NCBI GenBank assembly: GCA_026388765.1
Contig: JAPLJC010000121.1
Location: 1-48,180, forward strand
Length of the DNA: 48,180 nt
From: Deltaproteobacteria bacterium
GTDB lineage: Bacteria > Desulfobacterota > Desulfobaccia > Desulfobaccales > 0-14-0-80-60-11
Direction of reading: 5' to 3'
In this document: in pieces, positions 8,355 to 13,767 of the stretch
Layout: every line of letters starts with the position of its first letter
Numbering within the stretch: position 1 is the first letter of the stretch
Notes under the pieces: model-generated
The model's database searches: none
What the model saw: only the letters and a program-made list of their open reading frames with translations
What the model was told of the DNA's origin: nothing
Program-made: the position numbers and the translations under genes

Positions 8355-9512
8355 TCAGTTGGTGGCCAGCTGAGTCTGGAGGGTGGAAATGACGTGCTCG
8401 GCCTCGCCGATGTAAGTCCCCATGTTGGCCCGGTGATTGGCGATCCAGCCGTCCTTGTCGCCGTTGAAGACGATCCAGGGCGCTAAGTGGGCGGCTTGGT
8501 GCAGGGCGTGGATGCCATCTTCCAGGAGCTTGGAGGAGTTCTTTTTCTGGAGTTCCTGGTGGAACTCCTTGCTCACCGCGTCCAGCATCTCCGCCATCCC
8601 CAGGGCGATGCCCCGGGAGAAGTAGAAGTAATCATCCGACACCCACCAGGACACCGGCTTGCCGTCGGACTCGCTGTCTTTGATGAGGTTGTGGAAGCTG
8701 CTGCCCAGCAAATCTTTATAGTTGCTGAGCAGGGCGATGAGATTGTCCACCCGGGAATAGTAGCGGCTGCGGCCTTTGTGCAGGCCTTCGATGTATTGCT
8801 CCAGGTCGTGCATGGCTTCCTGGTACTTGCCCGCGGCCGAGGGAAACCAGTATTTGTCCGGGCTCACCATGAAGTAGTTCATGGCTTCGTTGACCTGGGG
8901 ATTGTAGGCCTCCGTGGTGGCGAAGCGCGTCATGTTGACGTTCATCACCTCCACGGTACGCCGGGCCACCTCCAGGACGCCCAACTGGATGTTGTTGACG
9001 TTATCGGTGAGGCCCATCTTGCCGAAGATGATGCTGTTGGGGCGCCAGCCGAACCAGGTGCCGTTAATCTGGTCGTCCATGATCTTGATGAGAGCCCGGG
9101 TGAAGACCTCGCCCTTGGCCGGTTCCCGGGGCGGGGCCAGGGGGGCCGGCACCGGGACCGCGGGGCTCGGGTGCGCCGTCGCCGGTATTTTGGCCTCCGG
9201 GGTCGGGTGCACCCTGGCCGGAGTCCCGGCCTCACGGGTCGGGGCCGGGGCCAAGGCCTGCCCGGCTTCCGGAGCCTTTTCCGGCGCCTTCCCCAGCGAA
9301 GGGGCTGCGAATGGGTGGGTCTCCTGGGAAGGCGCCGTTCCCTGCCAGGACTGCCAGGTGAAGAGGGCGGCAAAAAAGAGGATGATCATCAGAGCCACCA
9401 GGAAAAAGCGGTAGCGCAGCAAAAGGGCCAGCAGGGATTTATCCGCCGGGTCGGGGCCTCCCGGCGGCAGGAGCATCGGCAGGTGCTCCGGATTCTCAGG
9501 TTTTGGGGTCAT
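8355..9512 (-). CDS. DUF2333-like membrane-anchored protein
   Basis: A 385-residue protein with a proline-rich N-terminus and one transmembrane helix (near residues 30-52, FLVALMIILFFAALFTW). A low-complexity Pro/Ala/Glu linker (about 60-130) follows, then a conserved domain from about 140 to the end. The domain shows NGTWFGWRPN, NIQLGVLEVARRTVEV, FPSAAGKYQEAM and RYYSRVDNL, which resemble the proteobacterial DUF2333 family as I remember it. Topology suggests N-in with a periplasmic domain. The start is ATG 9512, which overlaps the upstream gene's stop (ATGA), so the two are translationally coupled; the track's earlier start overlaps unnecessarily. Function is unknown. Confidence 0.65.
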   Translation of the reverse strand: MTPKPENPEHLPMLLPPGGPDPADKSLLALLLRYRFFLVALMIILFFAALFTWQSWQGTAPSQETHPFAAPSLGKAPEKAPEAGQALAPAPTREAGTPARVHPTPEAKIPATAHPSPAVPVPAPLAPPREPAKGEVFTRALIKIMDDQINGTWFGWRPNSIIFGKMGLTDNVNNIQLGVLEVARRTVEVMNVNMTRFATTEAYNPQVNEAMNYFMVSPDKYWFPSAAGKYQEAMHDLEQYIEGLHKGRSRYYSRVDNLIALLSNYKDLLGSSFHNLIKDSESDGKPVSWWVSDDYFYFSRGIALGMAEMLDAVSKEFHQELQKKNSSKLLEDGIHALHQAAHLAPWIVFNGDKDGWIANHRANMGTYIGEAEHVISTLQTQLATN

Positions 9513-10174
9513 GGTAGGGCACATCCCGCTTGTTTGGGGTGATCACCAAAGACTTCGGCGGTGAAGGCATAAATTTTGGTACCGGGCACTTTCCAGGCAT
9601 CCGGCGCCAGGCCGGCCTTGCCGCAGGTTTGCTGCAGGAAGGTGAGCCGGTCCCACTTATATTCCGTGGCCACCTGCGGCAGGAGCAGGCCCCGGCTCGG
9701 CCCCTGGACGATGTACAGGCCATCGGTGCCCACCTGGATTTCATCAATATTTTTAATCAGGCGCATGGGGCTCAAGACCGAGATTTCCACCTCCAGGTCC
9801 TTAAGCTCCTCCCGGCCCAGGGGGCGGAAGCGGGGGTCGTGAAAGGCCGCGGCCGCGGCCATCTCCCGCACCGTCTGCCCCAAAGGTTTGACCGCCTCCA
9901 GATAGCCGATGCAGCCACGGAGTTGTCCTTTACGGTGCAGCGAGACGAAGGCTCCCCGGGATTCGCATAGCCGGGGGACCGTTTCCAGGGGCGGGAGCGG
10001 CTTGTCCAGGAGGTGCGCCTCGATGCTGGCCCTGGCCATCTGCAACAATAAATTCTTATCGGCGTCGCTGAGATTCATTTTTGCCTCATCCCCCCAAGAC
10101 CGCGGGGCCGCGGGACCCCACGGGCCAATGGTCCCCAAAAGCAGACATAGGGTGATAAAACCGCGGATTTTCAT
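9509..10174 (-). CDS. AMMECR1-domain protein with N-terminal signal-like extension
   Basis: The AMMECR1 fold (AmmeMemoRadiSam protein A type) spans about residues 33-215, with LRGCIGYLEA, HDPRFRPL, EVEISVLSP and WDRLTFLQQTC. The function of this family is unsettled. Two starts compete. ATG 10174 adds a 32-residue hydrophobic segment that looks like a signal peptide but has only a weak SD. ATG 10078 (MNLSDADK) has GAGG six bases upstream and matches where family members usually begin. I report the long form because an in-frame signal-like sequence is unlikely by chance. It is followed by the DUF2333 gene with an ATGA overlap. The usual MEMO and radical-SAM partners are absent. Confidence 0.8.
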   Translation of the reverse strand: MKIRGFITLCLLLGTIGPWGPAAPRSWGDEAKMNLSDADKNLLLQMARASIEAHLLDKPLPPLETVPRLCESRGAFVSLHRKGQLRGCIGYLEAVKPLGQTVREMAAAAAFHDPRFRPLGREELKDLEVEISVLSPMRLIKNIDEIQVGTDGLYIVQGPSRGLLLPQVATEYKWDRLTFLQQTCGKAGLAPDAWKVPGTKIYAFTAEVFGDHPKQAGCALP

Positions 10175-10286
10175 GATCTAAGTTGCCATCCGGGGCCTTG
10201 CCGGCCGGGGTTCCCTTAATTTAGTATCTAACCAAGATTTACCACCCTGTCAATGGCAAAGGGGGGCCTGCGGCTGACCGGATGAC

Positions 10287-10302
10287 TGGCATTTTCCTTG
10301 CA
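10287..10302 (+). promoter_or_regulatory. Sigma-54 (-24/-12) type promoter
   Basis: TGGCATTTTCCTTGCA matches the RpoN consensus (TGGCAc-N5-TTGCa), with the invariant GG and GC separated by exactly 10 bases. It points toward the tetrapyrrole operon; transcription would begin about 70 bases before the start at 10387. No activator gene is visible nearby. Confidence 0.5.
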
Positions 10303-10386
10303 AGATGGCCATAATCTTGATAAATTTTAGAAAAAAGGGGTTGCCGCCGATGCTACCCGCGGCGGGGCGCCTGCCTGATTCTGCTG

Positions 10387-11070
10387 ATGAAGACCTATCC
10401 CATCTTTGCCCTCATTGAAGACCGGCCCTGCCTGGTGGTGGGCGGCGGCGCGGTGGGCGAGCGCAAGGTCCAGGACTTGCGCCTCGCCGGGGCCCGGGTG
10501 ACGGTGGTGAGCTTAAGTCTCACTCCCGCCCTGGCGGAGCTGGCCGCGGCGGGCCAGATCCGCTACCTGCACGAAGATTTCTCCCCGGAGCACCTTCAGG
10601 GCATGGTCCTGGTGCTGGCCGCCACCGACGACCGCCGGGTGAATGCCCGGGTCAGCGCCGCGGCTCAGGCTCAGTCCATCTGGGTCAACGTGGCGGACGA
10701 TCCGGAGTTCTGCACCTTTATCGTCCCGGCCCAGGTTAAGCGGGGCGACCTGACCCTGGCCATCAGCACCGGCGGCGCCTCTCCGGCCCTGGCCCGGAAG
10801 CTGCGGAAGGACCTGCAGCAGCGCTTCGGTCCCGAATATGGGCCTTATCTGGCCTTGCTCAAGGGGGTGCGGACCCGTCTCCTCACCGAGCGCCGGGGCC
10901 GTCCGGAGAATGCCGCCCTGTTTCACCAATTGGTGGCTAGCCCCTTGCTGGCGGCAGTGGCCCAGGGAGACCAGGCCCGGGTGGTGGCCCTGCTCCGGGA
11001 GATCCTGGGCGACGCCCTGAGCCCCCAGGTCCTGGGGGAGCTCACGAGCGAGGCCTTGGCAGAATCCTGA
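10387..11070 (+). CDS. Precorrin-2 dehydrogenase / sirohydrochlorin ferrochelatase-like (Met8/SirC family)
   Basis: A 227-residue cytoplasmic enzyme of the CysG-N/Met8 family. It oxidises precorrin-2 to sirohydrochlorin with NAD and may insert iron to give siroheme. The NAD-binding motif LVVGGGAVGERKVQDL lies at residues 16-31, then VLAATDDRRVN (about 77-87), VNVADDPEFCTFIVPA (about 100-115, including the conserved Asp) and ISTGGASPALARKLR (about 126-140). There is no uroporphyrinogen methyltransferase domain. It is the first gene of a run with ccsA/hemX and hemA, and supplies siroheme for sulfite reductases or the alternative heme route in organisms that have it. The upstream region holds a sigma-54-like promoter. 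Confidence 0.9.
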   Translation: MKTYPIFALIEDRPCLVVGGGAVGERKVQDLRLAGARVTVVSLSLTPALAELAAAGQIRYLHEDFSPEHLQGMVLVLAATDDRRVNARVSAAAQAQSIWVNVADDPEFCTFIVPAQVKRGDLTLAISTGGASPALARKLRKDLQQRFGPEYGPYLALLKGVRTRLLTERRGRPENAALFHQLVASPLLAAVAQGDQARVVALLREILGDALSPQVLGELTSEALAES

Positions 11071-11096
11071 GGGTGGCATCTTTACTCTAAATACTT

Positions 11097-11930
11097 ATGA
11101 CTGAAAATTTATTATACTTCGCCCTGGCGGCTTACTTCGGCGCCACCGCCCTGTGGCTGGCTTTTTTCCTGGCCCAACGGGAGAGCCTGTACCGCTATGG
11201 CGCCTGGGTTATGGCCGCCGGCCTGGCCTGCCATACCCTGGTCCTCATCCAGCGTACCATTGCTTACGGCTACCTGCCGGTGGCCGTCTTCGGCGAGGCC
11301 CTGCTGTTATTCGACTGGGTCCTGGTGGCGGCCTTTTTGCTCTTCAACTGGCGCTACCCCATCCGGGTCCTGGGAGCCCTGGTGGCGCCCCTGGCCGCCC
11401 TGCTGGTTTACGGCTCCCTCATCTTGCCCCAAGGCCAGGCGGGAGCCATCTCTCCCCTGTTGCGGGGCTTCTGGTTGACGGCCCATATCGGCTTGACCCT
11501 GGGGGGCTATGCCGCCCTGACCCTGAATTTTCTGGGCGGCATCTTTTACCTGATCCAGGAACGCCAACTCAAGGCCAAAAAATTCGGTTTCTTTTACCGG
11601 CGCCTGCCGTCCCTGTCGCAGTTGGACACTCTCAATTACTGGTGCCTCACCATCGGCTTCCCGTTGTTCACCGGCGGCATCATTACCGGCTCCTTGTATG
11701 CCCAGCACACCCTTGGGCGTTTCTGGTCCTGGGACCCCAAAGAGGTCCTGACCCTGATTGCCTGGCTGATCTATGCGGTGCTGTTGCATGAGCGCCTCAC
11801 CGTGGGCTGGCGGGGCCGCCGGGCCTCCTGGCTCGCCATCCTGGGTTTCCTGGTGCTGGCGGTCACCTTTGTGGGCGCTAACCTGTGGCTCTCGGGCTAC
11901 CACAGTTTCTCCAAGTTTGTTCAACCATGA
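11097..11930 (+). CDS. CcsA/HemX-family cytochrome c assembly membrane protein
   Basis: A 277-residue integral membrane protein with about eight hydrophobic helices. The tryptophan-rich heme-handling motif is present near residue 205 (GRFWSWDPKEVLTL), with histidines in flanking helices (for example AHIGLTLGG and LLHERL). CcsA proteins present heme to the cytochrome c synthetase CcsB outside the membrane, whereas the related HemX in Bacillus hem operons influences HemA levels. Placement directly before hemA with an ATGA overlap makes the HemX reading attractive, but the WWD-like motif is also typical of CcsA. No ccsB lies in the window. Confidence 0.82.
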   Translation: MTENLLYFALAAYFGATALWLAFFLAQRESLYRYGAWVMAAGLACHTLVLIQRTIAYGYLPVAVFGEALLLFDWVLVAAFLLFNWRYPIRVLGALVAPLAALLVYGSLILPQGQAGAISPLLRGFWLTAHIGLTLGGYAALTLNFLGGIFYLIQERQLKAKKFGFFYRRLPSLSQLDTLNYWCLTIGFPLFTGGIITGSLYAQHTLGRFWSWDPKEVLTLIAWLIYAVLLHERLTVGWRGRRASWLAILGFLVLAVTFVGANLWLSGYHSFSKFVQP

Positions 11931-13228
11931 ATCTCCTGTTAGTGGGCGTCAATCATAAGACTGCTTCCGTGGGGTTGCGGGAAAGGCTGGCCGGCCTCAT
12001 CCCGGATCTGGAGGCGGCCTACCGGACCCTCACGGCCTACCCGGAGATCGCCGAGATCATCCTCTATGGCACCTGCAACCGGCTGGAGCTTCTCTGCGTG
12101 ACGGCTGAGCCGGCCGAGGCCCTGGACCGGCTGCGGGCCTTTCTCTCCCAAGACCCGGAAGTCTCCCCGGCGGAACTGGAGGAATCCCTGTACGTGCACC
12201 AGGGCCCCGAAGCGGTGCGGCACCTCTTCCGGGTGGCCGCCAGTCTCGACTCCATGGTGTTGGGGGAGCCCCAGATCCTGGGCCAGATCAAGGAGGCCTT
12301 TCGTCAGGCCACCGGGCAGCAGGCCACCGGGCCCATCTTGAACCGCCTGCTGCACAAGACCTTTTCGGTGGCCAAACGCGTCCGCACCGAGACGGGCATC
12401 GGCGATCACGCCGTCAGCGTCAGTTACGCCGCCGTCAGCCTGGCCCGGAAGATCTTCGGCGAACTCACCGGCATGACGGTGCTGCTGGTGGGCGCCGGCG
12501 AGATGGCCGAACTGGCCCTGGAGCACCTCCGGGGCCAGAAAGTGGGCCGCATCGTCGTGGCCAACCGCACCCTGGAGCGGGGCCTGCGCCTGGCCGAGCG
12601 CTACCGGGGGGAGGCCGTCTCCCTGGAGGAATTGGAGGACCAGCTGTTGAGCGCCGACATTCTCATCAGCTCCACCGGTTCGGAAACCTATCTGCTGAAA
12701 CGGGACCAGGTGAAGGCCGCTATGCGCCGCCGGAAGCAGCGGCCCCTCTTCCTCATCGACATCGCCGTGCCCCGGGACCTGGACCCGGCCATCAACGACC
12801 TGGACAACGTCTACCTCTACAATATCGACGACCTGCAGGAAGTGGTGGAGCAGGGCTGGCAGGCCCGCCGGCAGGAGGCGGCCCGGGCCGAACGCCTGGT
12901 GGGGGCCGAGACCGTTAAGTTCGAGGACTGGCTGCAGACTCTGGAGGTCTACCCCACCATCATCGCCCTGAAGGACAAGGCCGCGGCCATTAGCCAGGCG
13001 GAGCTGAAGAAGACACTGAGTCAGTTGGGCCCCGTCAGCGAGGAGCAACACCAGGCCCTGGAGGTGCTCCTTAACTCCGTCACCCAAAAGCTCCTCCACG
13101 ACCCCATCATCTTTCTGAAGCGCGACCACAGCATGAAGAAGAGCCCCCACCGGGAACTGGACCTGGTGCGCCGCCTCTTCAACCTGGATTTGGAACGGGA
13201 GGCGGAGGGAACGGAAGAAGAAGAATAG
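11927..13228 (+). CDS. hemA: Glutamyl-tRNA reductase
   Basis: NADPH-dependent reduction of glutamyl-tRNA(Glu) to glutamate-1-semialdehyde, the first committed step of C5-pathway tetrapyrrole synthesis. It is 433 residues long from ATG 11927, which overlaps the ccsA/hemX stop (ATGA); the track's start 42 bases earlier lies inside that gene. Diagnostic features are VGVNHKTASV at the N-terminus, YGTCNRLEL with the catalytic cysteine near residue 48, LGEPQILGQIKEA, the NADPH-binding VLLVGAGEMAELA, and a helical dimerisation region at the C-terminus. It is the third gene of the tetrapyrrole operon, and a REP-like element follows the stop. Confidence 0.96.
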   Translation: MNLLLVGVNHKTASVGLRERLAGLIPDLEAAYRTLTAYPEIAEIILYGTCNRLELLCVTAEPAEALDRLRAFLSQDPEVSPAELEESLYVHQGPEAVRHLFRVAASLDSMVLGEPQILGQIKEAFRQATGQQATGPILNRLLHKTFSVAKRVRTETGIGDHAVSVSYAAVSLARKIFGELTGMTVLLVGAGEMAELALEHLRGQKVGRIVVANRTLERGLRLAERYRGEAVSLEELEDQLLSADILISSTGSETYLLKRDQVKAAMRRRKQRPLFLIDIAVPRDLDPAINDLDNVYLYNIDDLQEVVEQGWQARRQEAARAERLVGAETVKFEDWLQTLEVYPTIIALKDKAAAISQAELKKTLSQLGPVSEEQHQALEVLLNSVTQKLLHDPIIFLKRDHSMKKSPHRELDLVRRLFNLDLEREAEGTEEEE

Positions 13229-13242
13229 TTGAGAGAAAAAAA

Positions 13243-13296
13243 TGTAGAACCGCCGCCCTCGGCGGTTTTATAGCCGGCAAGGGCGCCGGCTCCACA
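13243..13296. repeat. 54-bp REP-like double palindrome, copy 2
   Basis: The same length and architecture as 2674-2727: TGTAGAACCGCC at the left, a second GCCGGC-type hairpin, and TCCACA at the right. Loop and inter-hairpin bases differ between the copies while the stems are kept. It lies 15 bases after the hemA stop. Confidence 0.85.
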
Positions 13297-13377
13297 TCAG
13301 CGAAGAGCCACCTCTGCTATTGACCGGCCCCCATTATCTTGTTATTTTTAAAAGAAGCAGCGCTGACGAGGCTAAAT

Positions 13378-13767
13378 ATGTCCAAAGTCATCGATATCGA
13401 AGACCGGCTCAAGCTGGAGCAAAAGAAAAGGGTCCGGGTGGATAAGGCCAAGAAGACCGAGGCGGTGCGCAAGGTGGTGCAGTGCACCCGCTGTATGGCC
13501 CGCTGCGCCCGGTGCGGGGTCCAGTTCGACACCACCGACATGTATAAGCGCTACCCGGGGCCCTACCGCCTGTGCGCCTTTTGCCAGGAAGAGTACGACG
13601 ACTTTCTGCGGATCACCGAAAAAGGACAGGAGAGTCCCTTTTACTGGCACAACCGGGAGTGGGTGGCCCTGTGGCAGTCCTGGGTCGATTACCAGAAGGC
13701 CATGAAGGGCTATGGCGAGTCTCCCGAGTTCATCGACCTGGTGCGGGAGGTGGAGCTGGATAGGTAG
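13378..13767 (+). CDS. Small zinc-ribbon protein of unknown function
   Basis: 129 residues from ATG 13378 (GAGG seven bases upstream; the track start at 13339 has none). The first 30 residues are a charged helix. Cysteines C36-x2-C39-x3-C43-x2-C46 and C66-x2-C69 then form a probable zinc-binding or treble-clef-like site (CTRCMARCARCG, CAFC). The C-terminus is rich in Trp/Tyr (FYWHNREWVALWQSWVDYQ). It is cytoplasmic, with no signal peptide. I do not recognise a named family. Position after hemA suggests possible co-expression, but the REP element lies between. A nucleic-acid or protein adaptor role is plausible only by analogy with other zinc ribbons. Confidence 0.7.
   Translation: MSKVIDIEDRLKLEQKKRVRVDKAKKTEAVRKVVQCTRCMARCARCGVQFDTTDMYKRYPGPYRLCAFCQEEYDDFLRITEKGQESPFYWHNREWVALWQSWVDYQKAMKGYGESPEFIDLVREVELDR

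Follow-up and report, generated by a model that had tools for sequence, protein, structure and literature searches.

The window, i.e. the whole stretch of 48,180 bases that was analysed, contains the operon sirC-ccsA-hemA and, upstream of it, a divergently oriented gene, with the following features between and within them. Gene identities come from Pfam and TIGR profiles.

9509-10174, minus strand: divergent gene of the AMMECR1/AmmeMemoRadiSam protein A family (PF01871, 4.5e-56; TIGR04335, above cut-off)
10225-10253, minus strand: sigma-70-type promoter TTGACA-N17-TAGATA, read from the sequence, which would serve the divergent AMMECR1-family gene
10287-10292, plus strand: -24-like element TGGCAT, which together with 10298-10302 makes up the reported sigma-54 motif
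10298-10303, plus strand: putative -35 box TTGCAA (TTGCAT in relatives)
10318-10326, plus strand: putative extended -10 element TGA-TAAATT (hexamer at 10321-10326)
10387-11070, plus strand: sirC-type gene with a precorrin-2 dehydrogenase domain of the CysG N-terminal type (PF13241, 1.9e-30; PF14824, 5e-10; TIGR01470, score above cut-off)
11097-11930, plus strand: cytochrome c assembly membrane protein of the CcsA/CcsB type (PF01578, 2e-41; TIGR03144, above cut-off)
11927-13228 (start at about 11927), plus strand: hemA, glutamyl-tRNA reductase (PF05201, PF01488, PF00745; TIGR01035, 3.8e-138)
13248-13267 (approximately): terminator-like hairpin 3' of hemA

An Rfam search of positions 9400-13500 gave no match. 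Past the hemA terminator, at 13378-13767, there is a cysteine-rich open reading frame of 129 residues without a Pfam or NCBIfam match.

An earlier note on this DNA had described a sigma-54-type motif pointing at a SirC-like/CcsA/hemA operon. The motif lies between the AMMECR1-family gene and sirC-ccsA-hemA, and therefore the operon was correctly named; it faces sirC, whose start at 10387 is 84 bases downstream. In what follows, g1 denotes the genus of the window, g3 its sister genus and g11 the genus of the outgroup family. The promoter region of the AMMECR1-family gene is visibly kept between g1 and g3, and its -35 region, TGTCAATG, recurs across most of the family where this gene is divergent.

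The motif, TGGCATTTTCCTTGCA, is the 16-mer at 10287-10302 of the plus strand, with GG at 10288-10289 and GC at 10300-10301 separated by N10, and near-consensus flanks, so that the claim of an invariant GG/GC pair at exact spacing is borne out. For comparison, the sigma-54 (RpoN) consensus is TGGCAC-N5-TTGCW, and the half-sites of the D. vulgaris sigmulon read tGGcacg and tTGCt (PMC4641369). No other place in the window matches TGGCAYN5TTGCW exactly, and by chance 0.07-0.10 such matches would be expected there (5.6-7.4 per genome), according to Markov simulations of the window of orders 1-4. The draft genome has 14 strict matches. Judging from their surroundings, read by eye, seven of the 13 others either stand in front of a gene and point at it or lie at its start. 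These genes are two amtB-type transporters, a tusA-like and a gcvH-like gene, one for a universal stress protein, and two more; the remaining matches are inside or beside open frames. A 14-to-0 excess over the reversed pattern was not counted as evidence, since reversal changes the letter pairs, and the Markov expectation is used instead. Scored with a sigma-54 matrix built on a small reference set, mostly of amtB sites, the window motif reaches 14.8, equal to the lowest value among the 20 reference sites (range 14.8-24.1), while the g3 copies reach 18.5, within that range.

It should be considered whether the organism possesses the sigma factor in question. The two RpoN Pfam domains were sought in the draft, which is 93% complete, and rpoN was not found there; it is present in 39 of 40 relatives, and the draft contains 29 matches to the activator domain. 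In the sister genus, rpoN belongs to the block lptA/C-lptB-rpoN-hpf-ptsN-rapZ, and this whole block is missing from the draft assembly (G000): when a 6.4-kb stretch of sister-genus DNA with lptB-rpoN-hpf-ptsN-rapZ (gene names read by eye) was compared with the draft, only short matches inside an ABC-ATPase gene were obtained. Because bacteria of this kind normally cannot do without lptB, which is absent together with the rest of the block, the block most likely falls in an assembly gap rather than having been lost, and it is almost certain that the species possesses RpoN and numerous activators. The argument that a draft lacking rpoN implies an organism lacking sigma-54 was rejected on these grounds, since the whole block is missing and both the activators and conserved sigma-54 sites remain. 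As for local control elements, a simple motif scan of the window showed no motif of an enhancer-binding-protein gene, and no inverted repeats are present at 10175-10390, in the intergenic region near the promoter. A literature search found no sigma-54-controlled hemA operon of the sirC-ccsA-hemA type; in Bradyrhizobium, heme genes are lowered in rpoN mutants (PMC13207237), which has no bearing on the sirC promoter.

Orthologs of sirC are present in 22/22 genomes of the family and in 6/7 of the sister family, and the promoters of 14 of them, from six genera of the two families, could be aligned without gaps. TTGCA, which the -35 box shares with the "-12" half of the reported motif, is present in all 14, and the two C's preceding it are kept in 13/14 and 14/14. 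In 14/14 the -10 hexamer conforms to TAMATT and the G at 10319 is kept, and the spacer between TTGCAW and this hexamer is exactly 17 bases in every one of the 14 promoters. In the window, TTGCAW-N17-TAMATT occurs once, at the sirC promoter. The region thus has hexamers within the 16-18 spacing of sigma-70 promoters, a TG at the extended -10 position, and elements kept in orthologs. The outgroup genus g11 retains CTCCTTGCAT-N17-TAAATT although the AMMECR1-family gene was not found upstream there. In four further g8 genomes, the boxes are shifted at the same place and lack GG, and in three of these the best-scoring boxes are TTGGCA or TTGCAA with TAAAAT. In the g9, g4, g6 and g10 genomes, neither promoter was recognisable in the DNA searched.

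The pattern of a TTGCAT-like -35 box, a 17-base spacer and TGNTAMATT, kept in front of the same operon in two families, is that of sigma-70 extended -10 promoters, from which it differs in that the -35 box (TTGCAT) departs from TTGACA; judged against the E. coli consensus, TTGCAT falls short of a strong -35 box. The sigma-70 matrix that was used is E. coli-style and approximate, and in some orthologs it prefers different pairs; the argument for a putative sigma-70 promoter is based on conservation, not on matrix scores. A pair proposed by a separate promoter scan, CTGGCA-18-CATAAT, was discarded, its second box not being kept in the sister genus.

The -24 half behaves differently from the -35/-10 pair. 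GG is present in only four of the 14 aligned promoters, all of them from g1 or g3, and the other ten keep TTGCA without it; outside these two genera the position reads CG, TG or CT, or else has GG one base too close. Conservation of the motif upstream of orthologous operons, which the earlier note had proposed as a check and whose absence it took as refuting its claim, consequently breaks down beyond two sister genera. A yardstick for this result is provided by genuine-looking sigma-54 sites of the same family. At amtB, a classic sigma-54 target, GG and GC are kept in 16/17 close orthologs from eight genera, the exception (L059) being at a contig edge, where the 209 upstream bases available contain none. 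At the gcvH-like gene, they are kept in 6/6 orthologs, as opposed to 4/14 at sirC. The tusA-like gene (L192-L198) has the site in 3/7 orthologs; strict sites are found in g1, g3 and one g8 genome, whereas the four remaining g8 genomes lack one. Given a TTGC half, GG is present in 25/25 control sites versus 4/14 sirC promoters, for which Fisher's test gives p 1.6e-6 with kinship ignored; this value is too small because the rows are related, and the comparison by genus (amtB 8/8 versus sirC 2/6, p 0.015) is safer. The within-family comparison, with amtB as the yardstick, is what separates the sigma-54 and sigma-70 readings.

These data bear directly on the idea that the operon is driven solely or mainly by sigma-54. 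The exact consensus match speaks for it, as does the near certainty that the species has RpoN and many activators, and the sirC site resembles sigma-54 promoters in its letters, in its GG-N10-GC spacing and in its distance from the start codon. However, unlike the amtB and gcvH-like sites, with their near-complete retention of GG, the sirC site does not have a family-conserved GG; it overlaps a -35/-10 pair that is kept in all 14 promoters, ten of which lack GG; and neither an enhancer, sought as inverted repeats at 10175-10390, nor, in a simple motif scan of the window, a linked activator was found. We regard a main role of sigma-54 as very improbable.

The conservation could also have a different origin, namely that TTGCA and the stretch upstream of it form the binding site of a putative transcription factor, both promoter readings being secondary. 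Consistent with this, similarity across genera is somewhat higher in the columns directly before the -35 box than in more distant ones, with, for example, C at -4 and T at -5 each in 10/14 promoters. The intergenic region lacks an inverted repeat, however, and the fixed 17-base distance to TAMATT is what a sigma-70 promoter predicts, so that this explanation appears unlikely, if somewhat less so than the preceding one.

A more restricted role of sigma-54, limited to g1 and g3, deserves closer attention. The two genera are sisters in the sirC tree (support 94/97), and therefore a single origin of the -24 half is enough. The bases CTGGCATT are identical at 8/8 positions when the window genome is compared with three g3 genomes one by one, while identity between g1 and g3 is 44-56% (gapped) in the 25 bases of upstream flank and 35-53% in the -35/-10 spacer. 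At the identity of the flank, the chance of an 8/8 match is about 0.001-0.01, counted as one comparison because of the close kinship among the g3 genomes. Such identity amid a flank that is only about half alike is a hint that the -24 half may be under some constraint in the g1-g3 clade. That clade consists of five genomes. In one of them, the fourth g3 genome (G017; L012, upstream of 1501), an insertion of about 600 bases between the AMMECR1-family gene and sirC has replaced the whole promoter, and neither promoter reading therefore applies there. By eye, this insertion carries a candidate BrnT/BrnA-like toxin-antitoxin pair.

In this clade, a sigma-54 site may have been built onto the ancestral housekeeping promoter of this heme/siroheme entry operon, with the -35 box reused as the -12 element, giving a dual promoter in which sigma-70 would provide basal expression of hemA while the sigma-54 holoenzyme acts on the same DNA. 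Responding to some signal, RpoN might then activate hemA, with sigma-54 (-24 at 10287-10292, -12 at 10298-10302) adding an activator-driven start at about 10313, or else block it, the sigma-54 holoenzyme being bound but inactive, and competing with and lowering the housekeeping promoter. Competition of the latter kind is documented in E. coli, where sigma-54 and sigma-70 sites overlap at argT, chaC, mdfA and patA (PMC4551910). As at those genes, a -24/-12 motif lies within the footprint of a -35/-10 promoter; unlike them, the putative sirC overlap is confined to one clade. Besides the consensus match at exact spacing, roughly half of the genome's strict matches look real, which is also in favour of a working site. 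On the other hand, the feature is restricted to one clade of five genomes, one of which has lost the entire promoter, neither inverted repeats at 10175-10390 nor, in the window, the motif of a linked activator gene were found, and a -24 half gained once by chance beside a fixed TTGCA, and then inherited, would look similar. A dual promoter is kept as a minority possibility, roughly one chance in five, because of the CTGGCATT identity, the score of the g3 copies and the competition known from E. coli.

The reading that we prefer, and consider probable on the basis of the conserved elements, is that transcription of the operon starts at a housekeeping promoter of the sigma-70 type whose -35 box completes the sigma-54-like motif. 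This promoter would consist of the -35 box TTGCAA at 10298-10303, a 17-base spacer, and the extended -10 element TGA-TAAATT ending at 10326. From this arrangement, we infer the holoenzyme that uses the promoter as well as the start site, predicted near 10333 (10332-10334). The -35 box, as CCTTGCA, would serve as a -12 element without a mismatch, and the 11 bases before CCTTGCA would have come to read TGGCATTNNCC in the ancestor shared by g1 and g3, creating a -24-like half at the right spacing; the sigma-54-like motif would arise because the two lie together. As to the proposal that RpoN controls hemA, the resemblance of the motif to sigma-54 sites stands, if at the bottom of the reference range, but the conserved element is of the sigma-70 -35/-10 type, and such control would reach no further than one small clade.

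More generally, a conserved sigma-70 -35 box can contribute one half of what reads as a perfect sigma-54 consensus. Should the sigma-54 half be functional in g1 and g3, it would represent an overlapping promoter, acquired recently, at the entry of tetrapyrrole synthesis, for which the relatives without the -24 half would be natural controls.
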